34,586 bases of DNA, taken from the NCBI GenBank assembly GCA_945870175.1, contig CAMBRJ010000003.1:1-34586 (forward strand), in the 5' to 3' direction. Below the pieces are notes generated by a model that saw only the letters and a list, made by a program, of their open reading frames with translations, had not been told where the DNA came from and ran no database searches. Within the stretch, counting starts at the first letter, position 1; each line of letters starts with the position of its first letter. Source of the stretch: Gemmatimonas phototrophica. Lineage in GTDB: Bacteria; Gemmatimonadota; Gemmatimonadetes; Gemmatimonadales; Gemmatimonadaceae. The translations under genes were made by a program, and so were the position numbers. Below are positions 7,346-34,586 of the stretch, in pieces.

Positions 7346-7351
7346 TGGCAT

Positions 7352-7488
<137 letters not shown>

Positions 7489-7551
7489 CGTTAGCGATCT
7501 AGCCCATAGGCGGGTCGCGTGCGAGAAATCGATCCAGGCGTAGATTGGGAC

Positions 7552-9291
7552 ATGCCTTTCTTCAGCCTTCGCCCCGTTCGGGGCCACGTTGCCGTGACCG
7601 CCGCCGTGACCGCCGCGCTGATGGCCCTGCTCGTGGTGCCGCAGCCCCTGCTTCACGCGCAGTCGGCCTCGCCGAGCCGTAGCTATCCGCAGCTGCTGTC
7701 GCTGTTCACCGAATGGCGCACCTTCGAGGAGCCGCCGCGCCGCGACGGGATTCCCGATTACACCCCGCCCACCAACGCGCGCCGGCTCACCGCCCTCCGC
7801 GCCTTGCAGGCGAAGCTGCGCGCCATCGATACCACCGGCTGGCGCGTGCCGGAGCAGGTGGACTGGCACCTGGTGCGGGCCGAAATGAATGGCATGCAGT
7901 ATCACCTCACCGTGCTGACGCCGTTTTCGCGCGACCCGGCGTACTACGCCTCCGTGCGCACCGAGGAAAGCGATACGCCGGCCGAGGAGGGCCCCATGAT
8001 TCATGGTGCCGTCCGCTTGTGGCGGTATCCGGTGTGGCCGCGAACCGTGCTCGATCGGTCGCGTGCCCTCAACGCCGACGAATCACGCCGCCTCACGGCG
8101 CAGTTGAACACGATCCCCCCGTTGCTACGCCAGGCGCGGGTGAATCTGGCCAATGGCAACGCCAAGGACCTGTGGGTGGGCGCCGTCAAGACGTTCGACG
8201 AACAGCACGACGCGCTCGGCACACTGGCCACGTTGGTGGGCACCGCCAATCCGAACGACAGCGCGCTCAAGGCCGCGATTGCCGGCGCGGCAAGTGCCAC
8301 CGAATCGTTTACCGGCTGGCTCCGCACCGAAGCGCCAAAGAAGACGGGCAAGTCTGGCATCGGCACAACGCAGTACACGTGGTTCTTGAAGAACGTGCTG
8401 CTGGTGCCGCTGTCGTGGGAGGAGGAAGTCACGATCACGCGTCGCGAACTCGCTCGCGCGCACGCGTCACTGCGCCTCGAGGAAACACGCAACGCCGCGC
8501 TGCCGCCCATGGCGGTGGCCAAGTCGGCCGCGCAGTTCGCGACGATGCAAGCCGAGGCCCTGCCGCGCTACATGCAGTTCTTCCGCGACAAAGGCATCGT
8601 GACGGTGGAACCGTGGATGGAGCGCGCCTTGCGCGAGCGCTTTCAGTCGTACTCGCCCGAGGCCACGCGCAATTTCTTCTCGCAGGCCACGCACCGCGAT
8701 CCACGTACGTTGTGGACGCACCTCTGGCATTGGTGGGACAACGGCCGGTTCCGCGAGCATCCGCACGCCAGCCCGATCCGTCGCACGCCGCTGCTGTACA
8801 ACGTGTGGATGAGCCGGGCCGAAGGGATGGCCACGTCGATGGAAGAGTGGATGATGCAGGCGGGCTTGTACGACCAATCGCCGCGCTCACGCGAGATCGT
8901 GTGGACCATGCTGGCGGCACGCGCCGCGCGCGGCCTTGGCAATCTTTACGCGCACGCCAACACACTCACTATGGCGGAGGCGGCCGACATGCACGTGCGC
9001 TGGACGCCGCGCGGGTGGATGCGTCGCGATCCGCTGCTGGGCTTCGAGCAACACCTCTACCTGCGTCAACCAGGCTACGGCGCCAGCTACGTCACGGGTG
9101 GACGACTCATGGAGGAGACGATGGCCGAGCGCGCGCGGCAGCTTGGTGATGCGTTCACCATGAAGCGCTTCTTCGATGAAGTGAACACGGTGGGGATGAT
9201 TCCCGTATCGCTGGTGTATTGGGAACTCACCGGCGACGACCGGATGGTGCGCGAACTCCGAAACGGGGGCGGGCCGCTGCCGTTTCGGTGA
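7552..9291 (+). CDS. DUF885-like secreted protein lacking the canonical HExxPGH motif
   Basis: Signal peptide; C-terminus LRQPGYGASYVTGGRLMEETMAERARQLGDAFTMKRFFDEVNTVGMIPVSLVYWELTGDD is DUF885-like. GTG 7519 is an alternative start. Confidence 0.7.
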   Translation: MPFFSLRPVRGHVAVTAAVTAALMALLVVPQPLLHAQSASPSRSYPQLLSLFTEWRTFEEPPRRDGIPDYTPPTNARRLTALRALQAKLRAIDTTGWRVPEQVDWHLVRAEMNGMQYHLTVLTPFSRDPAYYASVRTEESDTPAEEGPMIHGAVRLWRYPVWPRTVLDRSRALNADESRRLTAQLNTIPPLLRQARVNLANGNAKDLWVGAVKTFDEQHDALGTLATLVGTANPNDSALKAAIAGAASATESFTGWLRTEAPKKTGKSGIGTTQYTWFLKNVLLVPLSWEEEVTITRRELARAHASLRLEETRNAALPPMAVAKSAAQFATMQAEALPRYMQFFRDKGIVTVEPWMERALRERFQSYSPEATRNFFSQATHRDPRTLWTHLWHWWDNGRFREHPHASPIRRTPLLYNVWMSRAEGMATSMEEWMMQAGLYDQSPRSREIVWTMLAARAARGLGNLYAHANTLTMAEAADMHVRWTPRGWMRRDPLLGFEQHLYLRQPGYGASYVTGGRLMEETMAERARQLGDAFTMKRFFDEVNTVGMIPVSLVYWELTGDDRMVRELRNGGGPLPFR

Positions 9292-12428: not shown

Positions 12429-13739
12429 TCACGGCACGATCTTGGCAGGCGGCACGATCTTGATGCCATCCGCGAAGGTGGCGGTGAGCAGATACAGCAG
12501 CTTGGTCGACGGCAGCGCGCTCGAGGCCAGCGCGAACTCGGTGAGCTGATGCGCGCCGCTGGCCTTCGAACCGCCAATGGCGATGCTGGGAATCTTGCGC
12601 ACCACGCCGGGATTGGCGTCGGTGGCGCCCGTCGCCACGGCTTCGGAAGCGCCGGGCATGCCCGGGGTCATGCCGAGTGCACGATTGATGTCGACCGCGG
12701 TCTGCACGAGGGGATGCGCGCGCGCGCCTTCCAGCTGCTTCTCGGTACCGCCGGCGCCGCTCTTCTGCTCGATCTCGATCTTGAGTCCCACCTTCTGCTC
12801 GGCCGCCACTTCCTGCGTGATGCGCGTGATCATGCGATCGAGCGAGTCGAGGAGCACCGGATCCGAGCTGCGCAGGTCCACGGTGAAGTACAGCTCCTGC
12901 GGGACGGCGTTGAAAATGCTGCCTCCATGGATCTGACCGATGTTCATCACCGCGCCATTGGGCAGCGCATCGAACTGCAGCTGATACAGTCGATCGATGG
13001 CCTTCGCCACCGCCTTCACCGGCGTCGGGATACCACGCGATGACAACGTGTGTGCACCGGGATGCGTGAACACGAACTTGGTCCAGTAAATGCCGAGCGC
13101 GCCGTAGGACACGCTGCCGTACGCGCCATCGGGCACAATGAGCAGGTCGGGCTTCGGGTTGTGCTCCAACCAATAGGCCATCCCCTTGAGGCCGAGTTCC
13201 TCCTGCACGGTGCCGATGAAAATGATGTCGCCGGTGCTGGTGAACTTGGTAGCGTTCATCACGCGCAACGTGGACAGCATGTTCGCCACTGACGCCGTGT
13301 TGTCACCGACGCCCGGCGCGAACAGCGTATCGCCGGAGCGACGCACCTTGGTGTTCGTTTCGGGCGGGAACACGATGTCGGTGTGCGCCGCGATCACGAT
13401 CGTGGGGCCGCCACCGGTGCCTTTGCGCACGCCGGTCACATTGCCGATGGAATCGACGGACACCTTGAGGCCTTCTTTCTCGAACACCGACTTCACATAG
13501 GCGCCGCGCTGCTGCTCGAGTCGCGACTTGCCGGGCATTTCGGCAATACGGATCCACTCGTCGACCTGACTCGGGAAGCGCTGCTCGATCATCGCCATCG
13601 CCGACTTCACATCGGCGCGCTTGAGGAGCTCAGGATTCCAGCTGGTCGGATAGGTCTGCGCGGCCAAGGGCTGCACGAGTGGCGGCGACAACGACAACGC
13701 GGCGGTAACGACCGCGAGGACGGCAAAAGAGCGACGCAT
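12429..13739 (-). CDS. M20-family metallopeptidase, secreted
   Basis: Signal peptide MRRSFAVLAVVTAALSLSPPLVQPLAAQ; GGPTIVIAAHTDIVFP, GVGDNTASVANML, GTVQEELGLKGM. The longer frame upstream to 14294 overlaps the amidase and is non-coding. Confidence 0.85.
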   Translation of the reverse strand: MRRSFAVLAVVTAALSLSPPLVQPLAAQTYPTSWNPELLKRADVKSAMAMIEQRFPSQVDEWIRIAEMPGKSRLEQQRGAYVKSVFEKEGLKVSVDSIGNVTGVRKGTGGGPTIVIAAHTDIVFPPETNTKVRRSGDTLFAPGVGDNTASVANMLSTLRVMNATKFTSTGDIIFIGTVQEELGLKGMAYWLEHNPKPDLLIVPDGAYGSVSYGALGIYWTKFVFTHPGAHTLSSRGIPTPVKAVAKAIDRLYQLQFDALPNGAVMNIGQIHGGSIFNAVPQELYFTVDLRSSDPVLLDSLDRMITRITQEVAAEQKVGLKIEIEQKSGAGGTEKQLEGARAHPLVQTAVDINRALGMTPGMPGASEAVATGATDANPGVVRKIPSIAIGGSKASGAHQLTEFALASSALPSTKLLYLLTATFADGIKIVPPAKIVP

Positions 13740-13756
13740 GAGAGAAGAGGTAGGAG

Positions 13757-15532
13757 TTACGGAAAGAGCGGCGGACGCACGCGCTTCTTGGTGGCCTGCT
13801 CGAACGCGGACGCCAGCCCAACCAGGGTGGGCTCGCCGCATGCCGACGCGGTGAAGCTCACGCCGAACGGGGCGGGCTTGGGGGTGAAGCCCTCGGGAAA
13901 CGCTTGCGCGCCCTGTCCCGGCGCCACCGGCAGCAGGGCATACGGAACGGTAACGGTCGGATAACCGGGGCGCGCGCCGATGTTGGCGCTGCTGGTGCCA
14001 GGAAAGAGCAGGGCGTCGAGTTGGTGGGCCTTCATGGCCGCATCGATGCCGTTGGTGGCCGACAGCAGGATGTCCTTGCGACGGTCGGCCTCGTACCGCG
14101 CCCGGTCGGCCTGTACGTCCATCTCGTCGGAGATGTCGAGCAGCGCCTGTCCGTACTTGATCGCGCCGGCGCGCTGGTGCGCGATGTTCCACTGGCGCAG
14201 GCCGAGCAGATTCTTCACTGGTGCCCGGTCGCCCAGGAGCGTGAGCCACGTGTTGAAGTCGCGCTTCATGCCGTACTTGAACGCAATCGAGCAATCAGCG
14301 TCGCGCCCCTTGGCCTGTTCGAGGCCACTGCACGGATTCCAGTTCAGGAAGTTGTTGGCCGGCACCGGTTCCACGACACTCGGGATGTCGGCCGGATCGA
14401 CGATCACGGCGCCCTGCGCCTTGAGCACCGCGATGACCTCGTCCATGGCCGTCTTCTGCGCGGCCGTGAGCCCACCACGCGGCGTGCTGCTGCCCCCGGC
14501 CGGCGGAACGGTCGGCTCGTAGAAGAAGGCGCGAGGAATCCCGATGCGGGCGCCCTTGAGCTTGTCGGCGCCGAGAAAGGCGGTGTAGTCGTTGCGGGGC
14601 GGCGGCGTGCACACCGTGGTGGCGGCATCGTTGGCGTCGGGGGCGGTGCCCTCGAGCACGCCCAGCATGATGGCGGCGTCGCGCACGGTGCGGGTCATCG
14701 GTCCCGGCGTATCCTGATCGGCCGTAATCGGAATTACGCCATATCGGCTTACGCGTCCCACGGTGGGCTTGATGCCCACCAGGAAGTTTTGCTGGGCGGG
14801 GCTGAGAATCGAGCCCGACGTTTCGGTGCCGACGTTGCCGGCCCAGAAGCTCACGTTGGTGCCCACGCCGGAGCTGGAGCCGCCGGTGTTCATCACTGGG
14901 CGACCGTCGAAGAAGGCCTCGCGCGGATCGCGCCGCGGATCCCACGGATTCATGCCGTAGCCGGTGAGCCCCGTGTAGTTGCCGGGCATGCCGCTGGCGG
15001 TCCAGTTGGCGAGTTCGGTGAGCTGCGTCTTGGCGATGATGATCGCCCCGGCCGCCTTGAGGTGGCGCGTGATCGTGGCGTCGTAGTTCGGCATCAAGTC
15101 GGCGAAGGCCAGCGCGCCGCCCGATGTCGCCATCTCGATGGTCTGAATGTTGTCCTTGAGCGCGATCGGGATGCCGTGCAGTGGTCCACGAAGCCGTCCC
15201 GCGGCCCGCTCGCGGTCGAGCGAGTCGGCGATCGCCAGGGCCTGCGGGTTCACCGTGATCACGGCGTTCAGTTTGTCTTCGTACGTCGCGATGCGCGCGA
15301 GGTACTGCTGCACGATCTCGCGCGACGTGATCCGCTTCTGTTCCAGCGCGGTGCGCAGGTCGGCGAGACTGGTTTCGACCACGGAGATGGGCGCACCGGT
15401 TGGCGAGGCTGCTGGCGAGGCTGCGGGCCGGCGCTGCGCGCGTAGCGTGCTGGCCGCGACGGACATCGCGGCAACGACGAGGATGGTGCGAACAACGGTG
15501 GGACCCATCGGCAGCCTCTGCGTAGCGTGCAT
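13757..15532 (-). CDS. Amidase signature family protein, secreted
   Basis: LHGIPIALKDNIQT, NTGGSSSGVGTNVSFWAGNVGTETSGSILSPA, GIKPTVGRVSRYGVIPI, DTPGPMTRTVRDAAIML. ATG 15508 is an alternative start. Confidence 0.92.
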   Translation of the reverse strand: MHATQRLPMGPTVVRTILVVAAMSVAASTLRAQRRPAASPAASPTGAPISVVETSLADLRTALEQKRITSREIVQQYLARIATYEDKLNAVITVNPQALAIADSLDRERAAGRLRGPLHGIPIALKDNIQTIEMATSGGALAFADLMPNYDATITRHLKAAGAIIIAKTQLTELANWTASGMPGNYTGLTGYGMNPWDPRRDPREAFFDGRPVMNTGGSSSGVGTNVSFWAGNVGTETSGSILSPAQQNFLVGIKPTVGRVSRYGVIPITADQDTPGPMTRTVRDAAIMLGVLEGTAPDANDAATTVCTPPPRNDYTAFLGADKLKGARIGIPRAFFYEPTVPPAGGSSTPRGGLTAAQKTAMDEVIAVLKAQGAVIVDPADIPSVVEPVPANNFLNWNPCSGLEQAKGRDADCSIAFKYGMKRDFNTWLTLLGDRAPVKNLLGLRQWNIAHQRAGAIKYGQALLDISDEMDVQADRARYEADRRKDILLSATNGIDAAMKAHQLDALLFPGTSSANIGARPGYPTVTVPYALLPVAPGQGAQAFPEGFTPKPAPFGVSFTASACGEPTLVGLASAFEQATKKRVRPPLFP

Positions 15533-22992: not shown

Positions 22993-24231
22993 ATGTCGAA
23001 ATCTCGATGGACCATCCCCCTCGGCGCCGTCCTCGTCCATCTGGGCATCGGCTCGGTGTACGCCTGGAGCACGCTCAATCGCCCGATCGTCGCCGCGCTC
23101 CCGCCGCAGCCGTGGTGGGGGAGTCCGCCGTACACCACGTTCACCGCCGCGCTCGTGCTGCTCGGCCTGAGCGCCGCCACGATGGGACCCTGGGTGGAGC
23201 GTCGGGGCGCGCGCGTCGCAGCCAAGACGTCGGCGATGTTCTTCGCCGGCGGACTTGCACTTGGCGGGCTCGGCCTGCTCTGGCAGCAGCCGCTCCTGCT
23301 GTTTCTCGGGCTCGGTATTCTCTGCGGCATCGGCTGCGGCATCGGCTACATCGCGCCGGTGAGCACGCTGGTGAAGTGGTTTCCCGAGCGACGCGGCATG
23401 GCCACGGGCTTCGCCATCATGGGATTCGGTGGCGGGGCATTTCTGGGCGGCTACGCGAATGCGTTTCTGATCGAGCAGATGGGCGTGGCGCGCGCCCTGT
23501 TCGTGCTGAGCGGGGTGTACTTCGCGCTCATGTCGGCCGGGGCGCTGCTGCTTCGCCCCGCCCCCGAATCGCTGCCGGGGGGAACCACACCGGCGGTCAC
23601 CGGACTCACTCGCAGTGAAGCAGTGCGCACGCCGCAGTTCCTGCTGCTGTGGGGCATGCTCTGTGTGAACGTCACCGCCGGGATCGGCATTCTCGCCCAG
23701 GCGTCACCCATGATGCAGGACCTCTTCGGCCGCACCCCCAAGCAGGCCGCGGCCATCGTGGCGGTGATCAGCCTGTTCAACGCCGGCGGACGGCTGCTCT
23801 GGTCGAGCGCGTCTGATCTGATGGGTCGACGCACCACGTATCTCATCTTTTTCGTGGCGCAGTTCGCACTGTTTTTGGCCATTCCGCGCTTCGCGCTGAT
23901 GGGTGCGTGGTGGCCGTTCCTGGCCTGCCTGCTCACGGTATTCACCATGTACGGCGGCGGCTTCGCGACCATGCCGGCGTTCCTGGCCGACCTGTTCGGC
24001 TCGCGCAACGTGGGGGCGATTCACGGCGCCGTGCTCACCGCGTGGAGCGTGGCGGCGGTCATGGGACCGGTGATCATCACCCAGCTGTCCGAGCGCGCCC
24101 GCGCGGCGCTGGCCCCGGGCGAACCGCGCGTCCACATCTACGACCAACCGCTGATGCTGCTGGCTGGGCTGCTCGCCGTCGGACTCGTGCTCACGCTCGC
24201 GGTGAAGCCGCTGCGGCAGCCCACGGCGTAA
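22993..24231 (+). CDS. OFA (oxalate/formate antiporter-like) family MFS transporter
   Basis: GSVYAWSTLNRPI; GIGCGIGYIAPVSTLVKWFPERRGMATGFAIMGFGGGAFLGG; GGRLLWSSASDLMGRR; about 12 TM segments. Confidence 0.9.
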   Translation: MSKSRWTIPLGAVLVHLGIGSVYAWSTLNRPIVAALPPQPWWGSPPYTTFTAALVLLGLSAATMGPWVERRGARVAAKTSAMFFAGGLALGGLGLLWQQPLLLFLGLGILCGIGCGIGYIAPVSTLVKWFPERRGMATGFAIMGFGGGAFLGGYANAFLIEQMGVARALFVLSGVYFALMSAGALLLRPAPESLPGGTTPAVTGLTRSEAVRTPQFLLLWGMLCVNVTAGIGILAQASPMMQDLFGRTPKQAAAIVAVISLFNAGGRLLWSSASDLMGRRTTYLIFFVAQFALFLAIPRFALMGAWWPFLACLLTVFTMYGGGFATMPAFLADLFGSRNVGAIHGAVLTAWSVAAVMGPVIITQLSERARAALAPGEPRVHIYDQPLMLLAGLLAVGLVLTLAVKPLRQPTA

Positions 24232-24250: not shown

Positions 24251-25702
24251 CTACGGAGTAATCGCCGGCGACGCGAGCTGCTTCACCATGCGGTACCAGA
24301 ATTCCACGCTGTCGTGGAACGCTTTCACCCCCACGCGCTCGTCCTGGCCGTGGGCACGGCTCGGTTCCAGCTGTTCGAAGAAGATGGCCGAGATGCCGTA
24401 GGTGGGGATGCCGGCATTGCGCGTGAACAGTCCGTCGGTGGCGCCGGTGGACATCTCGGGCACCACCACAGCGCCGGGGAATCGCTCCTTCGTGAGTCGC
24501 TCCACCACGCCCATGACATCCGCGCGTAACGGCGACGCCGGGCTCGGCGTAATTGGCCCATCGGCCGTGACCTTGGCCAGCGACCCCACCACACGCTGAA
24601 TGGCGGCCCGCACCGAGTCGGGCACCTCATCGGGGAGCATGCGGCAATTGATGTTGGCCGAGGCGCGCTGCGGCAGCGCATTATCGGCATGTCCGCCGGT
24701 CAGCAGCGTGGCCACGCAGGTCGTGCGCATCACCGAGTTCCAGTACGGATTCGTGGCAGCCAGCGACTGCGCAGCGGCCGCGCTCATCGGTTGCGCGGCC
24801 ACGGCACGCATGAGGGCGGCCACCTCGGGGGTCTGAGTGGCAGCGCTCTGTTGGAAATAGGCGCGCGACACCTCGGTGAGTCGGATCGGAAACTCCGAGG
24901 CGCCGAACGTGATCAGGGCCGCCGAGAGATCGTAGATCGCGTTGTCCTTCCGCGGCACCGAGCTGTGCCCGCCGAGGTTCGTGGACTCGAGCTTGAAGTT
25001 GGCGAACACCTTCTCCGCGGCCTGCACCGAGTTCGACACGGGCGTGCCCTTGTCGAGCGCCCCGCCGCCGGCGTCGGTATTGAGGGCGTATTCCGCGTCG
25101 AGCTTCGCGCGGTGATTCGTGAGCAGCCACATCATCGAGCCGCTGGTGGTCTCCTCATCGGCCGTGAGCACCACCACGATGTCGCGATCCGGCACGAACT
25201 TCTCGCGCTTCCAACGCACCATATTCGCGACGATCGCGGCCACACCGGCCTTGTTGTCCTCGGCACCCCGCCCGTAGTACCAGCCGTCCTTCTCGACCAT
25301 CGTGAACGGATCGGTCGGCCAGTCACTCCGGTTGGCGGCCACGACGTCCAGATGCGCCATCAGCAGCATCGGCTTCTTGCCCGAGGCCCGTCCGCGTAGG
25401 CGCGCCACGAGTGACGTGAGTTCCGGACGTGGGCCAAGAAGCTGCACGTCGACCGCCGGGTAGCCGGCCGCCAGTAACCGGGCGGCCACGGCCTGCGCCG
25501 CCCGACGCACCCCGGGCGTGCCGGTCGTCGAGTTGATGTTCACCAGCTGCCGCAGGATGGCGCGTGCCTCCTGTTGATCGGCCGGCAACGGGGCAGGCTG
25601 CGCCGCCAGCGATTCAACCGGTCGCGCGAGCGTGCTCGTGAGCAAGATGCCCGAGATCGCCATCATCCACCGGGTTACGGCACACCGAGAACGGCAAAGC
25701 AT
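24251..25702 (-). CDS. M20/M25/M40-family metallopeptidase, secreted
   Basis: PMLLMAHLDVVAANRSDWPTDPFTMVEKDGWYYGRGAEDNKAGVAAIVANMVRW; VVVLTADEETTSGS; NTDAGGGAL; ATDGLFTRNAGIPTYGI. Start placed at MLCRSRC. Confidence 0.93.
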   Translation of the reverse strand: MLCRSRCAVTRWMMAISGILLTSTLARPVESLAAQPAPLPADQQEARAILRQLVNINSTTGTPGVRRAAQAVAARLLAAGYPAVDVQLLGPRPELTSLVARLRGRASGKKPMLLMAHLDVVAANRSDWPTDPFTMVEKDGWYYGRGAEDNKAGVAAIVANMVRWKREKFVPDRDIVVVLTADEETTSGSMMWLLTNHRAKLDAEYALNTDAGGGALDKGTPVSNSVQAAEKVFANFKLESTNLGGHSSVPRKDNAIYDLSAALITFGASEFPIRLTEVSRAYFQQSAATQTPEVAALMRAVAAQPMSAAAAQSLAATNPYWNSVMRTTCVATLLTGGHADNALPQRASANINCRMLPDEVPDSVRAAIQRVVGSLAKVTADGPITPSPASPLRADVMGVVERLTKERFPGAVVVPEMSTGATDGLFTRNAGIPTYGISAIFFEQLEPSRAHGQDERVGVKAFHDSVEFWYRMVKQLASPAITP

Positions 25703-25810: not shown

Positions 25811-27568
25811 ATGCGAACCCAAACCCGACTCGCCGCGCTCGCACTGCTCGCGCTCGGCACCGCTTGCGCTCCCGCCGAGCAGGCCGCGGACGCCGTTCCC
25901 GCCACCGCCGGGTTCGCCCCCTTCGTGGACCGCTATCTCGACGGCTTCGCGCGCCGTCATCCCTCGATCGCCGCCGGCAACGGCTTGCACGATCACGACG
26001 ACCAGCTTGACGACTTCTCCGCGGCGGCCATCGCCGCCGAGATCACGACGCTCAAGACGGCAGCGGCCGAGCTCGCGGCGTTCAGCGATTCGTCACTCAC
26101 CCCCGACGAACGCGTGGACAAACGCATTCTCGCCGGCGTGATCGACGGCTGGCTGCTCGAGCAGGAAACGCTGGAGAACTGGAAGCGGAATCCGATGACG
26201 TACGCCAGTGCGTTGTCGGATGGCGTGCACAACCTGATGACGATGGAAAACGAGGCGGCGCCGGTGCGCATGCGTCGGATCATCACCAAGCTCGCCGGTG
26301 TGCCCGCATTGCTTCAGGCGGCGCGCACGAACATCGTCACGCCGCCCCGGATCTTCGCCGAACGCGGACTCGGCATGATGCGCGGCGCATCCACGATGCT
26401 CACCACCGACCTGCCCGTCGCCTTCGTCACGGCGAACGGCACACCGCTCATGGATTCACTATTGAGCGCGGCGACCGTCGCGGCGAAGGCCATCGACGCG
26501 TACACCGCCGATTTCGAGAAGACTGTACTCCCCACCGCCAACGGCGAGTGGAAGGTCGGTGGTGACGCCGTCGCCCGACGCTATCGCGCGGAAGAACTCA
26601 TCGACGTGCCGCTGGCCGACCTGGCCGCGCTGGGTGAGCGCGAACTGCAGCTGGCGCAGGAGCGCTTCCGCGCCGCGGCGCGGCGATTGGCGCCCGGCGC
26701 CGATCCGCAGGCCACGTGGCTCACGATCCGCCGCAATCATCCCAAGCGCGGCGAGGTCGTCGCGGCCGCACAGGCTGTCGTGGATTCGCTCACGCGCTTC
26801 GTCGCGGCCAAGAATCTGGCCGTGGTGCCCAATGGCGAACATGTCGTGGTCAAACCCGCGCAGCCGTTTTCGCTGGGCTTCGCGTCGATGCACGCGTCGC
26901 CCCCGCTCGAAAAGACGCCGTTGCAAAGTTTCTACTACATCACCGACGCCGACTCGCTCGAATCGCTCGCGCAGCAGGACGCATGGCTCGAACGCTTCAA
27001 CTTCGCCTCACTGGCGATCACGTCGGCGCACGAAGCGATGCCCGGTCATTGGCTGCACTCCGTGCACATGCGCGACACGCCGGGCAAGATCCGTCGCATC
27101 TGGATCGGTCTGAATCCGTTTCCGCAGCCGTCTTCTGGACAGGACGGCTGGGCGCACTATTCCGAAGAGCTGGTCGTCGAGCAGGGTTTCATGAACGGCG
27201 ACCCGCGCTATGCACTCGCCCAACTCAGTGACGCGCTCACGCGCATCTGTCGATTGCTGTCGGGCATTCGATTGCACACCGGCGAATGGACGCTCGCCCA
27301 GGCGCAGGCCTGCTTCGAGCAACAGGCCTATGTCGCGGCTCCCGCCGCCAAACGTGAAGCGGAACGCGGCACCTACGACCCCACCTACGGCGGTTACTTC
27401 CTGGGCAAGCGCGGCATGCTCACGCTGCGGCGCGATGTACAGGCGGCACAGGGTGACAAGTTCAACCTCCGCGAGTTCCACGAACGCGTTATGAAGAACG
27501 GCATCGCGCCGATCTGGGCGCACCGGCAGCTGCTGCTGCCGGGTGACACCTCACGGGTAATTCAGTGA
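25811..27568 (+). CDS. DUF885 lipoprotein with intact HExxPGH motif
   Basis: Lipobox LALGTACAP; SAHEAMPGHWLHSVH; HYSEELVVEQGF; IRLHTGEWTLAQAQACFEQQA. First gene of the plus-strand operon. Confidence 0.9.
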   Translation: MRTQTRLAALALLALGTACAPAEQAADAVPATAGFAPFVDRYLDGFARRHPSIAAGNGLHDHDDQLDDFSAAAIAAEITTLKTAAAELAAFSDSSLTPDERVDKRILAGVIDGWLLEQETLENWKRNPMTYASALSDGVHNLMTMENEAAPVRMRRIITKLAGVPALLQAARTNIVTPPRIFAERGLGMMRGASTMLTTDLPVAFVTANGTPLMDSLLSAATVAAKAIDAYTADFEKTVLPTANGEWKVGGDAVARRYRAEELIDVPLADLAALGERELQLAQERFRAAARRLAPGADPQATWLTIRRNHPKRGEVVAAAQAVVDSLTRFVAAKNLAVVPNGEHVVVKPAQPFSLGFASMHASPPLEKTPLQSFYYITDADSLESLAQQDAWLERFNFASLAITSAHEAMPGHWLHSVHMRDTPGKIRRIWIGLNPFPQPSSGQDGWAHYSEELVVEQGFMNGDPRYALAQLSDALTRICRLLSGIRLHTGEWTLAQAQACFEQQAYVAAPAAKREAERGTYDPTYGGYFLGKRGMLTLRRDVQAAQGDKFNLREFHERVMKNGIAPIWAHRQLLLPGDTSRVIQ

Positions 27569-28716
27569 CCGCCAGCAACGACATCGTTCGTGTAGGCGTG
27601 CTCGGCGCCGGCGCCTGGGCACAGTTCGCGCACTTGCCTGGCTGGAAGCGCGATCCGCGTTGCACTATCGTCGCGATCGCCGATCCCATCGTCGAGCGTG
27701 CCCGCGAGTTCGCGGCGCAGTTCGACATTCCCAATGTGTATGCCACACACGAAGAGCTGATCGCGCGTACCGATATCGATGTGGTCGACGTCTGCACCCC
27801 CAGCGCCACGCACTTTGCATTGAGCTGCGCGGCACTGGAAGCCGGCAAGCATGTGCTGTGCGAGAAGCCCGTGGCGTATGATTTCACCGAAACGCGACGG
27901 GCGGCCGCCCTGGCCGCCAGCAAAGGCCTCAAGACCAAGCTCGGCTTCACCTTCCGCTACTCGCCGGCCATGCGCTACATGAAAGCGCTGATCGACGAGG
28001 GGTATATCGGCACGCCGTTCATCTTCAACGGCTACGAGCAGAACTCGCAGTGGCTCGATCCGCAAACGCCGTTGCGTCAGGTCGATCATGAGGCCGACCA
28101 AACGGAGATTCACGTCTCGTCGCTGGAAGGCTACGGCGCGCCGATCATGGACATCGGCCACCTGTTCATGGGCAGTCGCTTCAAGTCGGTGGTGGGCACG
28201 ATGAAGAACTTCATCCCCGAGCGCATGGTGCGCGCCACCGGCACGATGATGCGCATGAATATCGACGATGGCGACATATTTATCGGCGAGTTCGACAACG
28301 GCGGCATTGGCTCCATTCAAACCAGCTTCGTGACCGTCGGAAACTATCCCGGCATCGAAGCGCGGGTGTATGGCAGCAAGGGCGCCTTGATCTGCCGACT
28401 GGTGGAAGAGAACGGCATCTGCGAAACGCTGAAAGGTGCGACGGCCGACGCCGTGGAGTTCAAGGAGCTCGAGATTCCGCAGCGCTTCTATCCGGCCGGC
28501 GGCAGTGCACGCGAATCGTGGCGTTCGCTGTTTTACGCGAACCTCATCGGCTCGTTCATCTCCGAGATCCGCGGCGAGGTGGAGGGCAACGAAGGCAACT
28601 TTGAAGATGGGGCGCATGTGCAGGAGCTCATCAATGCCGTCGAGCGCTCGTTCCGCGAACGCCGCTGGGTGAACATTCCGCTCGAACAGCCTTCCACCGC
28701 GGGATCGGCATCCTGA
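27565..28716 (+). CDS. Gfo/Idh/MocA-family oxidoreductase
   Basis: RVGVLGAGAWAQFAHLPGW Rossmann motif; DVVDVCTPSATHFALSCAALEAGKHVLCEKPVA. GTG start overlaps the upstream stop. Confidence 0.93.
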   Translation: MTASNDIVRVGVLGAGAWAQFAHLPGWKRDPRCTIVAIADPIVERAREFAAQFDIPNVYATHEELIARTDIDVVDVCTPSATHFALSCAALEAGKHVLCEKPVAYDFTETRRAAALAASKGLKTKLGFTFRYSPAMRYMKALIDEGYIGTPFIFNGYEQNSQWLDPQTPLRQVDHEADQTEIHVSSLEGYGAPIMDIGHLFMGSRFKSVVGTMKNFIPERMVRATGTMMRMNIDDGDIFIGEFDNGGIGSIQTSFVTVGNYPGIEARVYGSKGALICRLVEENGICETLKGATADAVEFKELEIPQRFYPAGGSARESWRSLFYANLIGSFISEIRGEVEGNEGNFEDGAHVQELINAVERSFRERRWVNIPLEQPSTAGSAS

Positions 28717-30395
28717 GCCACGATACGACGGCTACACTCGACCGCTTTCTTTCGCACTACTTCGCGCGACACCCCGTAAACGCCACGTTCACGGGACTGC
28801 ACACGCATGACCATCATCTCCCCGATTGGTCGCGTGACGCGCGCGACACCGAAGTGGCCGAGCTGGCCGAGCTGCACGACGCGCTGTTCAGCGCGTCGCC
28901 ACACCGCAGCAACGATGTCCTCGCCGCCGATATCGATGCCGTCGACGCCGAGTTGGCGCGCGCCAACATCGACCTCCGCATTCTCGAAACGCAGAGCCGC
29001 TTCTTCCACGACCGGAATCCCGTGCTCTGGACCGGCGAGGCGATTTTCAGCATCGTCTCGTTATTGCTGCGTCCCACGCAGCCCATGCCGTCCTGCACCG
29101 CGGCGATCACGGCACGACTCCGCGCCATCCCGGCGTTCCTTGGTGCGATGCCGGCAGCGCTCACCGAACCGGTCCCCGCGATCTGGATCGATCGCGCTAC
29201 CCGCGAGGCGCGCGCATTCGCCGCGTTCCTGCGGGGGCCATTGCGTCTCTGGTGCGACGAGCACCAGATCGACCGCGTGGAACGTCAGTCGATCACCGAC
29301 GCGGCGGCGGATGCAGCGCGGGCATTCGACGGCGCGGCACACTGGCTCTTCCTGTTGCCACACGACGTGCACTCGGGCTACGCCGTCGGCGTCGAAGCCT
29401 ACGACATCCTGCTGCAGCGCGGGCACTTCTGTGCGCAGTCGTCTGCCGAAGTGCTGCAACGCGTGCTCGGCGACATGCCCGCGGCCAAGGCGCGTTTCCA
29501 CGCGCTCGCGACCGACGTTGCCGGCTCCCCTGAGGCCCTCGGCGCGAAGCTCGCCGACGATCGCCCTGCCGAAGCCGACTATCTCGCCACCTTCACGTCG
29601 CAGTTCGATGCGTGCCGGGATCTTGCGCTGCAGCACGATCAGGTCAGCTGGCCCGACTGGCCGCTGCGCTACGTGCCCATTCCCGTGTGGGCCCGCGACA
29701 TCGCGCCGCAACTCTACTTTCTGTTTTATCGCTCGCCGGCACCGTACGAACCCCGCCCCGAGCACCGGTATCTCGTTACCCCCATCGACGACACCATCGC
29801 CCCCGACGAGCGCGAACGCCGCCTGAAGGTGTGGAATCGCAGCACGATCACGCTCAATCACGTCGTGCATCACGGCGCGCTCGGCCATCATGTGCAGAAC
29901 GGGCACGCCACCCATCGGTCGCACTCACGGATCGGCAAGATCGCTGCCGTAGACTGCGCGAGCCGTATCGGCATGTTCCTTGGCGGCTCGATGGCGGAAG
30001 GGTGGGCCTGCTACGCCACCGAACTCGCCGACGAACTCGGATTTCTCACGCCTCTCGAGCGTGCCGCGGAGCAACAAAGTCGTGTGCGCATGCTGGCGCG
30101 CGCCATCGTCGACATCCGTTTGCACACCGGCGAGTTCACCTTCGCCGAGGCCGTGGCGTACTACGTGCACGAAGTCGGCATGCCGGAGGCGGTCGCCATT
30201 GGTGAAGCCACTAAGAACTCGATGTTTCCCTGCACCGCCGTGATGTACTGGCTGGGCACGCAGGGCATTCTCGATCTGCGGGACACCATGCGCCAGCGAC
30301 CGGACTACTCGCCGCGGCACTTTCATGATGCGCTGTTGAGCCGGGGATCCATCCCTGTGGCGCTCGCGGCGCGACTCCTCACGGCAACGTCATGA
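28713..30395 (+). CDS. DUF885 family protein with altered motif HHGALGH
   Basis: Track starts at 28854, but the frame is coding from at least 28713: LSHDTTATLDRFLSHYFARHPVNATFTGLHTHDHHLPDWSRDARDTEVAEL, matching DUF885 N-termini. Start codon uncertain (CTG 28713 overlaps the upstream TGA). Confidence 0.8.
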   Translation: MSHDTTATLDRFLSHYFARHPVNATFTGLHTHDHHLPDWSRDARDTEVAELAELHDALFSASPHRSNDVLAADIDAVDAELARANIDLRILETQSRFFHDRNPVLWTGEAIFSIVSLLLRPTQPMPSCTAAITARLRAIPAFLGAMPAALTEPVPAIWIDRATREARAFAAFLRGPLRLWCDEHQIDRVERQSITDAAADAARAFDGAAHWLFLLPHDVHSGYAVGVEAYDILLQRGHFCAQSSAEVLQRVLGDMPAAKARFHALATDVAGSPEALGAKLADDRPAEADYLATFTSQFDACRDLALQHDQVSWPDWPLRYVPIPVWARDIAPQLYFLFYRSPAPYEPRPEHRYLVTPIDDTIAPDERERRLKVWNRSTITLNHVVHHGALGHHVQNGHATHRSHSRIGKIAAVDCASRIGMFLGGSMAEGWACYATELADELGFLTPLERAAEQQSRVRMLARAIVDIRLHTGEFTFAEAVAYYVHEVGMPEAVAIGEATKNSMFPCTAVMYWLGTQGILDLRDTMRQRPDYSPRHFHDALLSRGSIPVALAARLLTATS

Positions 30396-32032
30396 TGCGT
30401 TGGTCAGTTCGCCTATCCCGCCGCTCGGCGCGTTCCTCGGCGCTTGGCGTCGCCGCCGCGCTCGGTGCGACACTCGTGGCCTGCGGCGGGGAGACGTCCC
30501 GCACCGGCCCGTCGAATGAGCTGCTCATCGTGGGCTACGACCGTGAGCCCGATACGATGAACCGCTACGCCACGCACATTCTCGAAGACATCGAGGCGGG
30601 CGTGGTAGAGGGCCTCGTCACCAATGACGAGGCGATGAAGATCATCCCCGTGCTGGCCGCCGAGATTCCGACCACGGAAAATGGCGGCGTGGTCGTGCGC
30701 GCCGACGGCGGCATGGACGTGACGTGGAAGCTCCGCCCCGGTGTGAAGTGGCACGACGGCGTGCCGCATACGTCGGCCGATGTGAAGTTCACGGTGGATG
30801 CCATCAACAAGGGTGACTGGAAGCCCGAAAGCGTTGATGGCTTTGACCGCATCGCCTCAGTGGATACGCCCGACGCGCTCACGGCCGTCGTGCACTATAA
30901 GGAGGTGTACGCGCCGTACCAGCTCCAGTTCGTGCGCGGGGCACTCCCGAAGCACGTGCTCGAGGGGCGCGATCTCAATACCGCCAACGATTACAATCGC
31001 GCGCCACTCGGCACCGGTCCGTACAAGGTGAAGGAGTGGAAGACGGGCGAGTACATCCTGCTCGAGCGCGCCGAAGGCTACTGGCGTGGCCCGGAGTATC
31101 CGAAGATCAAGCAGCTGCTATTCCGCTTCCTCACGAACACCACCACCCGCATCAACCTCCTCAAGTCGGGCGAAGTGCACATGGTGGCCCTGGTGGCGTG
31201 GGACAAGGTGCGCGAGCTGGAGGCTATCGCCGGCCTGCGGATGAACCGCGTGGTCGGCAACGGCTACGAACATGTCACGCTCAACCAGAAGCATTTTACG
31301 CCGTTCGCCGATGTGAAGGTGCGGCAGGCGCTGGCCCATGCGGTCAATCGCGATCTGCTCGTGCGCACGATTCTCGACGGCCAGGTGGAAGTGGTGAACG
31401 GTCCGATCCAGCCGCTCTCCGCGGCCTACGAGCCGCAGGTGCCGACCTACGAATTCGATCCGGAGCGCGCACGCGCGCTGCTCACCGAAGCGGGCTGGGT
31501 GCTCGGCGCCGATAGCATCCGGATGAAGAACGGCAAGCGGCTCGCGTTTACGCTCATCACGCAGTCGGGCTTCGCGATTCGCGAAAACGTGTCGCAGGCA
31601 TTGCAGCAGGCGTTTCGCGACGTCGGCGCCGAGATGACGGTGAAGCTGCTGGATGGTACGACCATTAGCAGTGTGTGGTTTACGGGCGATTTCGACGCCA
31701 TGCTGCATTGGTGGCAGATGGGCGCCGACCCGGAGCTCACGCTGTTCTTTGCCGGCGATCGTATGCCACCGGCTGGGCGCAACATCAACTACGTGAACGA
31801 CGCCGAGTTGTCGGCGCTGCTGTATCGCTCCGATCGCACCGCCGATGTGGCACAGCGCAACGCACTGCTGCGTGACGCGCAGCGTCGGATCGCCGCGCTC
31901 GCCCCGGAGATCGTGCTGTACAACACCGCCAAGGTCGACGCCGTGCCGCGGTCCCTGATAGGCTTCACCGGTAATCCGACCAACGCCGGCCCGTTCTGGA
32001 ACGTGTACCAGTGGGAGATCGGCAGGCCGTGA
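30392..32032 (+). CDS. ABC transporter substrate-binding lipoprotein, peptide/nickel family 5
   Basis: Lipobox ATLVACGGE; LRPGVKWHDGVPHTSADVKFT; ADVKVRQALAHAVNRD; ATGA overlap with the previous gene. Confidence 0.92.
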   Translation: MMRWSVRLSRRSARSSALGVAAALGATLVACGGETSRTGPSNELLIVGYDREPDTMNRYATHILEDIEAGVVEGLVTNDEAMKIIPVLAAEIPTTENGGVVVRADGGMDVTWKLRPGVKWHDGVPHTSADVKFTVDAINKGDWKPESVDGFDRIASVDTPDALTAVVHYKEVYAPYQLQFVRGALPKHVLEGRDLNTANDYNRAPLGTGPYKVKEWKTGEYILLERAEGYWRGPEYPKIKQLLFRFLTNTTTRINLLKSGEVHMVALVAWDKVRELEAIAGLRMNRVVGNGYEHVTLNQKHFTPFADVKVRQALAHAVNRDLLVRTILDGQVEVVNGPIQPLSAAYEPQVPTYEFDPERARALLTEAGWVLGADSIRMKNGKRLAFTLITQSGFAIRENVSQALQQAFRDVGAEMTVKLLDGTTISSVWFTGDFDAMLHWWQMGADPELTLFFAGDRMPPAGRNINYVNDAELSALLYRSDRTADVAQRNALLRDAQRRIAALAPEIVLYNTAKVDAVPRSLIGFTGNPTNAGPFWNVYQWEIGRP

Positions 32033-32991
32033 TCGCGGGCACGATGCGTGGCATGATCATGCGGCGGGTGCTGCAGAGTGCACCGCTGCTGGTCCTCATC
32101 TCGGTACTGGTGTTCGCCCTCCTGCAGGCGGTGCCGGGCGGTCCGCTGGCGGCGTACCTCGAGAATCCGAATGTGCGCCCACAAGACATCGAGCGACTGC
32201 GGGCCGCCATGGGACTCGATCGTCCGCTCGCGGCGCAGTATGTGTCGTGGCTGTCGGCGTTCGTGCGCGGCGACTGGGGCTACAGTTTTGCCGACGGTCG
32301 TCCCGTGCTCGACCGTGTACTCGAGCGCGTGCCCGCTACGCTCGAACTGGTCGGCGCGAGCACCGTGCTGGCGCTTTGCGTGGCGCTGCCCGTAGGCGTC
32401 CTGGCGTCGGTGCATCGCCTGTTCGATCGTGTCACATCGTTGGTCGCGGTGGCGGGCATTTCGCTGCCGGTGTTTTGGTTTGGCTTGCTGCTGCAGCTGG
32501 TGTTCGCGATCACGTTGGGGTGGCTGCCGTCGTCAGGGCGCGCGTCGTTCGGTGCCAATTCGTTCGCGGATCGGATCGCGCACCTCGTGCTGCCGGTGGT
32601 CGTGCTGGCCGCCGTGCAAGCTGCCGCGTGGTCGCGCTATTTACGCCGAGCCATGCGCGAAACGATTGGCCGACCGTTTATGAATGCGGCGCGTGTGCGC
32701 GGCGTCTCCGAGCGCGGCGTACTGTGGCATCACGCGCTACCCAATGCGCTTGGTCCGTTCATTACCGTGGTACTGCTCGATGCCGCCATGATGGCGTCGG
32801 GTGCGGTCGTCACCGAAAGTGTGTTCGCCTGGCCTGGCGTGGGTAGCCTGTTCACCGAGTCGCTCGTGAAGCGCGACTATCCCGTGCTCATGGCCTTTCT
32901 CATGTGCGGCGCCATGGCCGTGATGGTGCTCAATCTGCTGGCCGATATCGCCGTGCGGTGCATCGACCCGCGCACGCGGGGCGCCGCATGA
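32029..32991 (+). CDS. ABC transporter permease, DppB/OppB type
   Basis: PGGPLAAYLENPNVRPQDIERLRAAMGLDRPLAAQYVSWLSAFVRGDWGYSF; NAARVRGVSERGVLWHHALPNALGPFIT. GTG 32029 overlaps the upstream stop. Confidence 0.92.
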   Translation: MIAGTMRGMIMRRVLQSAPLLVLISVLVFALLQAVPGGPLAAYLENPNVRPQDIERLRAAMGLDRPLAAQYVSWLSAFVRGDWGYSFADGRPVLDRVLERVPATLELVGASTVLALCVALPVGVLASVHRLFDRVTSLVAVAGISLPVFWFGLLLQLVFAITLGWLPSSGRASFGANSFADRIAHLVLPVVVLAAVQAAAWSRYLRRAMRETIGRPFMNAARVRGVSERGVLWHHALPNALGPFITVVLLDAAMMASGAVVTESVFAWPGVGSLFTESLVKRDYPVLMAFLMCGAMAVMVLNLLADIAVRCIDPRTRGAA

Positions 32992-33791
32992 AGGCTGGAC
33001 CGCGCGGTGGTCTGCTCTTTCTCGCCACGCTCGTGGTGGCGTCGCTGCTGGCCCCGTATCTCGCGCCCTTCGCCGCCGATGCACTCGATTTGGCCAACCG
33101 TCGTGCGGCGCCATCGGTGGTGCACTGGTTCGGCACCGATGAACTCGGGCGCGACGTCCTGACGCGTGTGCTGGTGGGAGCCCGCGTTTCGCTCGCCATC
33201 GGCGTGCTGTCGGCACTCATGAGCGCGGCCATCGGCGTCGCCGTCGGCGCGGTGGCCGGGTACGCCGGACGCTGGGTCGACGACGCGCTCATGCGCGCCA
33301 CCGACGCGATGCTCGCCATTCCGCGCCTCCCGCTGCTGATGCTCGGCGCCGCCGTCTTGCAGCCGGGCGTGCCCATGCTGATCCTGCTGGTCGCCGCCGC
33401 CGGATGGATGGAAACGGCGCGCGTCGTGCGGGCCGAAGTGCAATCGTTGTCGTCGCTCGATTTCGTGCAGGCCGCGCGGGCCATCGGCGCCAATCCGCTC
33501 GGCGTCATCGTGCGCCATATCGTTCCCGGTATCATTCCCGCCGCCACGGTCGCTACCACGCTCGCCATTGGTCGCGGCATCCTGCTGGAAAGCACGATGA
33601 GCTTTTTCGGCGTCGGCGTGCAGCCACCCACCGCCAGCTGGGGCAACATGCTCTATCAGGCGCAGACCGCGATGACAAGCGAGCCGTGGCTCGCGATCTT
33701 CCCCGGCCTCTTCATCTTTGCCACGGTGCTCGCCTGCAACGCCGTCGGTGATGCCATTGGTTCGTCTCCTTCTCAACACCAGGCCGCCTGA
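32988..33791 (+). CDS. ABC transporter permease, DppC/OppC type
   Basis: HWFGTDELGRDVLTRVLVGARVSLAIG; FVQAARAIGANPLGVIVRHIVPG; ESTMSFFGVGVQPPTASWGNML. ATGA overlap. Confidence 0.92.
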   Translation: MKAGPRGGLLFLATLVVASLLAPYLAPFAADALDLANRRAAPSVVHWFGTDELGRDVLTRVLVGARVSLAIGVLSALMSAAIGVAVGAVAGYAGRWVDDALMRATDAMLAIPRLPLLMLGAAVLQPGVPMLILLVAAAGWMETARVVRAEVQSLSSLDFVQAARAIGANPLGVIVRHIVPGIIPAATVATTLAIGRGILLESTMSFFGVGVQPPTASWGNMLYQAQTAMTSEPWLAIFPGLFIFATVLACNAVGDAIGSSPSQHQAA

Positions 33792-34586
33792 TGAGCTTCC
33801 CGCTTCCGTTCGCGCCTCGGCGCATCGCCATCGGCGCCAACGCGCATGTCGGCATCGCCGAATCCATTCGCGCGCGTCGCCCCGACCTTGAGCTGCGCGG
33901 CAAGGTGTTCACCGAGATCACCGCTGAGGATCTCGCGTGGGCCGAGGCGTATATCGGCTTCAAGCGTCCGCCGTCGGTCGCGGATATGGGGAACGTGCGC
34001 TGGATTCAGTGCACTGGTGCCGGCGTCGATTCGTGGATGTCGTCCAATCTCGATCCGTCCATCCTGCTCACGCGCAGCCCAGAATCGTTCGGTCCGATGA
34101 TCGCCGAGTGGGCGGTCTCGCGCATTTTCGCGATCCAGCTACAGGTGCTGGAGTTGGCCCAAGCGCAACGCGAGCGCCGTTGGGCGCCCCGTGACATCGC
34201 GCGAGTGGCCGGCACGCGGGCCCTCGTGGTGGGCACAGGAGACATCGGCCGCGCCATCGCACATGCACTACAGGCGTTGGGCGTGCACGTAACCGGCGTG
34301 TCGCGCAGCGGGACTGTCAGCGGAACCGACAACAGCGCGGCGTTCAGCGCGGTGCACGCGGCGAGCGAAATCGCGAATCTGGTGGGCGACGCCGACTGGA
34401 TCGTGGTGGCCGTGCCCGATACACCGGCATCGCGCGGCCTGATCTCGCGCGACGTGCTGTCACGTTGTCAGGGCGCGGGGCTCTTGAACGCCGGCCGCGG
34501 TTCGGTGGTCGAAGAGACCGCACTGCCCGAAGCGCTCGACAACGGCTGGCTGCGCGCGGCGGCGCTCGATGTATTCGCCACCGAAC
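33791..34586 (+). CDS. D-isomer-specific 2-hydroxyacid dehydrogenase family protein, truncated at the right edge
   Basis: ATG overlaps the upstream stop (TGATG). MSFPLPFAPRRIAIGANAHVGIAESIRARRPDLELRGKVF...GTRALVVGTGDIGRAIAHALQALG...LLNAGRGSVVEETALPEALDNGWLRAAALDVFATE; absent from the track because there is no stop before the edge. Confidence 0.88.
   Translation, partial: MSFPLPFAPRRIAIGANAHVGIAESIRARRPDLELRGKVFTEITAEDLAWAEAYIGFKRPPSVADMGNVRWIQCTGAGVDSWMSSNLDPSILLTRSPESFGPMIAEWAVSRIFAIQLQVLELAQAQRERRWAPRDIARVAGTRALVVGTGDIGRAIAHALQALGVHVTGVSRSGTVSGTDNSAAFSAVHAASEIANLVGDADWIVVAVPDTPASRGLISRDVLSRCQGAGLLNAGRGSVVEETALPEALDNGWLRAAALDVFATE

Follow-up and report, generated by a model that had tools for sequence, protein, structure and literature searches.

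A Gemmatimonas operon pairing a DUF885 protein of altered active site with a dehydrogenase and a Dpp-type importer: a candidate route for small amide- or peptide-like compounds

Contig CAMBRJ010000003.1 of Gemmatimonas phototrophica (assembly GCA_945870175.1) was analysed as a single window of 34,586 bases, which is one whole contig of a 70% complete assembly in 464 contigs. Seven genes, here named A to G (Table 1), fill positions 25811-34586 on the plus strand, neighbours overlapping at their stop and start codons. Gene C encodes a DUF885 protein in which the catalytic glutamate of the HExxPGH motif is replaced by histidine in all aligned homologues. The swap is fixed throughout one well-delimited subclade, and conserved gene order links this subclade to one dehydrogenase of the Gfo/Idh/MocA family (GFO, gene B) and to one importer with a solute-binding protein (SBP, gene D). 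The operon may serve the uptake and catabolism of a small amide- or peptide-like compound, a reading to which we give even confidence. More tentatively, the HHGxxGHH clade is proposed as a new metalloenzyme type that arose from a DUF885 peptidase and would act non-hydrolytically, in sequence with its GFO partner, in an undescribed catabolic pathway of many phyla. DUF885 is a large family, and its solved structures carry no assigned function. Since the swap is fixed and the gene order binds C to its partners, the function of C is directly testable; if C is an active enzyme, it would show a peptidase fold recruited for a different chemistry. Each component is of a known family; the combination and the HH-type DUF885 clade are new to the sources searched. 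No paper assigning a function to DUF885 or describing this cluster was found in the literature searched, in line with an earlier sequence-only reading of this DNA, made by a model from the letters and a list of open reading frames, which had recognised no described pathway in the gene set.

Protein C matches PF05960 over the full domain with 190.7 bits (cut-off 32.4). In a whole-protein search 30 of 30 homologues carried HHGxxGHH, and the wider set keeps this motif except for one locus reading HHGxxGHQ; part of the wider set was collected with an HHG-containing pattern, so that its uniformity is partly ascertained, and the searches of the order, the phylum and plasmids used no such pattern. 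Alignment with 20 HE-type proteins revealed that the Glu at motif position 2 and the Pro at position 5, both invariant there, are absent in C. Relative to DUF885 at large, the C clade swaps Glu for His and Pro for Ile, Leu or Val, and adds a further His after the motif. Both groups share the two flanking His residues, (E/D)G and the Tyr after it. Invariant in C are H382, H385, H386, G387, G390, H391, N395 and E428-W430, with H392 nearly so; the presumed metal ligands by alignment, two His and the Glu of EGW, are thus all invariant. In one paper, a zinc site of two His and one Glu is predicted for a DUF885 protein. Judged by the alignment, the third ligand is likely the Glu or Asp before GW or GI, which C keeps. 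Another candidate for this ligand, the Glu after HY in A (HYSEE), which C would have lost, was dropped after comparison with more DUF885 proteins and with c6, a short DUF885-like protein of about 400 amino acids encoded in some of the related clusters.

The C proteins form one clade with a support of 100/100, and the split of HH-type from HE-type proteins occurs in 100% of the bootstraps of a tree in which some HE-type rows sit on long branches. An AlphaFold2 model of C has a mean predicted local distance difference test (pLDDT) score of 96.6 and a predicted template modelling (pTM) score of 0.94. Its template modelling scores to the DUF885 structures 3u24, 3o0y and 3iuk, all annotated as of unknown function, are 0.75-0.77; the top five matches in the PDB are DUF885 structures and the next match has an E-value of 0.28. 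By this model C keeps the DUF885 fold. A and C are both members of the family (PF05960, Peptidase_MA clan) by sequence, and C by predicted fold too. The earlier naming of two DUF885 proteins was right as to the family, but the two are not equivalent: A alone has an intact zincin motif and C is without the catalytic Glu, so that a pair of hydrolases is unlikely. Because the general base is lost, ordinary peptide hydrolysis by C is unlikely. The retention of the presumed ligands and the fixation of the new His across phyla argue for a function that was kept and changed, and against decay.

A plain pseudopeptidase, catalytically dead and serving as regulatory or substrate-binding partner either of the GFO enzyme or of an active HE-type DUF885 protein (A or c6), is a serious rival, though we consider it less likely than a non-hydrolytic role in uptake and catabolism. 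The loss of the general-base Glu fits it, and the exchange of HE for HH has a precedent in the pseudopeptidase ADAM29 (HHLGH; review PMC11266112). At many loci an HE-type partner of the active type lies in the same operon. A scores 255.5 bits against PF05960 (cut-off 32.4), shows HEAMPGHW with the catalytic Glu in 11 of 11 homologues and has the Glu or Asp of (E/D)GW besides HExxPGH. The c6 proteins have invariant H-E-x-x-x-G-H and EG motifs; a model with a pLDDT of 93.6 matched best to DUF885 proteins, followed weakly by angiotensin-converting enzyme and oligoendopeptidase F. Against a dead partner stands the fixation, across phyla, of the presumed ligands together with the new residues H386, G387, H392 and N395, which exceeds the usual need of a scaffold. 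Moreover, an HE-type partner (A or c6) was present in 41 of 85 loci, and half of the loci would leave such a C without its nearby partner.

The neighbourhood of C is conserved far beyond the strain. With a threshold of E <= 1e-60 for C as marker, matches were obtained in 29 of 201 genomes of the order and in 50 of 395 genomes of the phylum Gemmatimonadota. The order GFO, C, SBP and the two permeases (permB, permC) is kept nearly everywhere in the order set, the exceptions being two genomes of family f2 without an adjacent GFO gene and one genome with GFO downstream. Flanking A and G genes occur chiefly within the genus and in closely related genera; A was found mostly in Gemmatimonadaceae, with a few acidobacterial loci. 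The core of the cluster therefore consists of GFO, HH-type DUF885, SBP, permB and permC, with A and G as frequent accessories. An alignment-based scan of species genomes for C yielded 132 relatives, the best 80 of which belong to Gemmatimonadota, Chloroflexota/Thermomicrobiota, Armatimonadota, Acidobacteriota, Spirochaetota, Myxococcota and other groups; most are metagenome bins, so that isolated odd assignments (an archaeon, a Kuenenia) may stem from faulty binning. Deinococcus, Ensifer adhaerens and Lichenicola were added as carriers of the cluster from plasmid records. The closely spaced genes that run with C include GFO at 62 and an SBP at 61 of 85 loci. GFO adjoins C in 77 of 87 pairs, directly upstream in 67 and directly downstream in 10, and B is better conserved than any other protein of the operon. 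The synteny comparison that the sequence-only reading had suggested thus gave a gene order shared by several phyla, not one confined to a single strain.

Accessory genes differ between these versions. Ensifer has genes for a VOC protein, c6, a ketopantoate-reductase-like protein, GFO and C, together with two Opp-type ATPases, a 2-hydroxyacid dehydrogenase, the SBP and two permeases. Lichenicola combines the Ensifer parts with a gamma-glutamyltransferase and a TonB receptor. The spirochaete version holds SBP, permeases, ATPases, an M18 aminopeptidase, a thiamine pyrophosphate enzyme, nitroreductases, GFO, C and two copies of c6. The Deinococcus version comprises an M24-type peptidase, IclR, a c6-like protein, SBP, permeases, a ketopantoate-reductase-like protein, GFO, C, an RraA-like protein, an SDR protein and M29. 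The peptidases of the versions from other phyla comprise M18, M24 and M29 types, gamma-glutamyltransferase and a Xaa-Pro-dipeptidase-like protein. Some further genes were seen at single relatives: a B12-binding/radical SAM gene and a 252-residue gene of unknown kind between SBP and permB in L046 (4609-7145), and creatininase-family genes and an aspartate-kinase/semialdehyde-dehydrogenase pair near the cluster in a spirochaete (L135, 13799-16789). A creatininase is also present in an acidobacterial relative (L122, 6306-7154).

SBP and permeases fit the Opp/Dpp/App importers, and the alphaproteobacterial and spirochaete versions include the pair of ATPases. The Gemmatimonadaceae operons differ in having no ATPase: none was present in the operon of the window genome or of close relatives, and the absence of an ATP-binding cassette (ABC) ATPase from the window, stated in the earlier reading, was borne out among the window's open reading frames. 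That reading had advised extending the contig to look for ATPases, and one Dpp-type pair was located at another locus of the genome, which accounts for an operon without ATPases. The pair with the oligo_HPY domain occupies one locus in 10 of 10 Gemmatimonadaceae genomes tested. Closer inspection of four genomes placed it within a Dpp operon of its own, with genes for an SBP, two permeases, the two ATPases and a further membrane transporter, and the sole pair found in the window genome lies on contig C10 (14130-16135; positions 6131-8136 of locus L198). SBP_bac_5 matches number 3-5 per genome against one oligo_HPY pair. The simplest account would be several importers sharing one Dpp ATPase pair. 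The multitask ATPases MsmX and MsmK serve several importers (PMC7658222), and the Gemmatimonas genome resembles that situation in combining several incomplete importers with one source of ATPase. Different is that the Gemmatimonas pair is of the heterodimer type and belongs to a full Dpp operon instead of being an orphan ATPase of sugar importers, and here the sharing is deduced from gene content. The prediction for Gemmatimonas is that a single Dpp ATPase pair powers several importers.

For the SBP the closest solved relative is AppA of Bacillus subtilis. In an alignment with DppA, OppA and GsiB of Escherichia coli, the Asp that binds the alpha-amino group of peptides (DppA D408, OppA D419) was present in 0 of 92 cluster SBPs, which have M, L, Q, T or S instead; the alignment has a one-residue gap next to this position, and GsiB is also without the Asp. 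The ligand of D may thus have no free alpha-amino group or be bound differently. The peptide-type importer of the sequence-only reading holds as a family assignment; the missing Asp weakens the case for an ordinary peptide.

General scavenging of oligopeptides, with one more Opp/Dpp system plus peptidases and with C as a peptidase of unusual base, appears improbable. The Opp4/App type of the SBP and permeases and the further peptidases, both in the foreign versions and elsewhere in the window, suit such a role; the constant GFO partner and the lost alpha-amino Asp do not, and the same genomes already possess a separate general Dpp operon beside a POT-like gene. Least probable is an opine- or metallophore-like system, in which amino-acid conjugates would enter via the family-5 SBP and be dismantled by the GFO, ketopantoate-reductase-like and 2-hydroxyacid dehydrogenases: D resembles NikA, CntA and AgaA-type binding proteins, Deinococcus and Alphaproteobacteria have the ketopantoate-reductase-like genes and Lichenicola the TonB receptor, but the similarity of D to AppA is stronger, no match to the opine dehydrogenase family was obtained and Rfam gave no regulatory RNA near the operon. 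As substrates, muropeptides, pantothenate-like amides, opines and metallophores were considered, none with decisive support.

Protein B shares with the characterised Gfo/Idh/MocA dehydrogenases (inositol, levoglucosan, MocA) the Rossmann NAD-binding domain (Pfam) and the EKP motif, whose lysine is present in 87 of 87 sequences. The Asp of the Dx3H motif (Asp196) is kept in 84 of 87; in contrast, the +4 position is W, L, E or T and the catalytic His occurs in only 2 of 87, so that substrate and mechanism would differ from those of the characterised enzymes. B stays well under the cut-off of every named NCBIfam equivalog, and no gene of the operon has an NCBIfam equivalog. B is probably an NAD(P)-dependent redox enzyme and not a typical inositol or sugar dehydrogenase. 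G is cut by the contig end in the window and has a full length of 317-321 amino acids in near relatives; its catalytic Arg (NAGRG) and Glu (ATE) lie in the window, the His (SPHISG) in the full-length relatives.

The proposed route of uptake and catabolism builds on the conserved core order, the adjacency of GFO, the motif, clade and fold of C, the HE-type partners, the ATPases of their own in Ensifer and Lichenicola, and the peptidases in the foreign versions. The gene content of the cluster points to an amide or peptide character of the substrate and to a redox handling of acid or hydroxyl groups. A would trim the substrate outside the cytoplasmic membrane, and D would hand it to the permeases E and F, powered presumably by the single Dpp-type ATPase pair of the genome; the flux is thus taken to run inwards. 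In the cytoplasm the adjacent B and C might act together on the imported molecule, B by an NAD(P)-dependent redox change and C by a non-hydrolytic reaction (lyase- or isomerase-like), by substrate binding or as a partner that holds the substrate. G could finally interconvert the 2-oxo and 2-hydroxy forms of an acid product. Several points weigh against this route. An HE-type partner is missing from the vicinity of C in roughly half of the loci. The SBPs without the alpha-amino Asp make an ordinary peptide a less convincing ligand, and B without the usual catalytic His renders a sugar-type oxidation doubtful. Accessory enzymes vary by phylum, so the substrate may vary too. Of the sequence from cleavage over import to oxidation suggested earlier, importer and enzymes stand; the oxidation is uncertain, as B lacks the Dx3H His, and A and G are accessory.

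The seven plus-strand genes and all six junction sequences given in the sequence-only reading were confirmed: GTGA, CTGA, ATGA, GTGA, ATGA and TGATG, in this order. Pfam likewise agreed with its family names (DUF885, GFO_IDH_MocA, DUF885, SBP_bac_5, two BPD_transp_1 and 2-Hacid_dh, from A to G). Overlapping junctions were counted in relatives, with gene starts from our own simple open reading frame caller, for HE-type DUF885 to GFO (15 of 24), GFO to HH-type DUF885 (35 of 80), HH-type DUF885 to SBP (22 of 65), permB to permC (58 of 94) and permC to the 2-hydroxyacid dehydrogenase (8 of 19). As gene order and tight spacing recur in relatives, the layout is more than chance. The seven genes look like one co-transcribed unit. 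A promoter scan found no sigma-70-like promoter, and terminator-like matches were at chance level.

Table 1. Genes and sequence features of the operon in the window
Feature	Position	Strand	Basis
A: DUF885 (PF05960) lipoprotein, HEAMPGH intact, predicted exported metallopeptidase-like hydrolase	25811-27568	+	Pfam, E 2.6e-75
B: Gfo/Idh/MocA-family oxidoreductase, core gene, EKP kept, Dx3H His not kept	27565-28716	+	Pfam
C: cytoplasmic DUF885 variant of the HHGxxGHH clade, core gene, CTG start	28713-30395	+	Pfam, E 1.1e-55
CTGA overlap of the stop of B and the non-canonical CTG start of C	28713-28716	+	
HHGALGHH motif of C, in place of HExxPGHx of other DUF885 proteins	29868-29891	+	residues 385-392, frame from 28716
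EGW of C (E428-W430), invariant Glu as presumed third metal ligand	29997-30005	+	
D: family-5 solute-binding lipoprotein (SBP_bac_5), nearest solved relative B. subtilis AppA	30392-32032	+	
E: DppB/OppB-type permease, start GTG 32029 or ATG 32044/32053	32029-32991	+	
F: DppC/Opp4C-type permease	32988-33791	+	
G: D-2-hydroxyacid dehydrogenase, cut by contig end	33791-34586	+	Pfam

Two junctions deserve comment. That of D and E is ambiguous, with in-frame ATG codons 15-30 nt after the GTG. The frame of C holds no ATG, GTG or TTG between the upstream stop at 28602 and position 28854, 141 nt past the CTG, hence C starts at CTG or at a rarer codon. The residues between the CTG and 28854 are conserved in relatives and form confident helices in the model. 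Across 80 relatives the four-nucleotide overlap of B and C read with ATG in 14, GTG in 15, TTG in 2 and CTG in 24 cases, and some of the 24 relatives with CTGA have a usable ATG nearby. These observations are explained most simply if C starts at CTG in some members of Gemmatimonas.

Genomes of the same genus contain 1-3 DUF885 matches without C and 2-7 with C, counts that include fragments, larger genomes and C itself; a co-occurrence of DUF885 genes as a whole with the cluster is no more than suggestive. A third DUF885 protein is encoded at 7552-9291 of the window, without any HExxPGH motif, and a similar gene was found in the relatives G060, G194 and G036. The window is rich in secreted-looking peptidases, and genes for an M20-type peptidase and an amidase adjoin on its minus strand (12429-15532). 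In the near relatives L032, L033 and L067 a gene for an MFS transporter lies directly upstream of the lipoprotein DUF885 gene; in the window (22993-24231, 24251-25666) an M20 peptidase gene of the opposite strand stands between the two.

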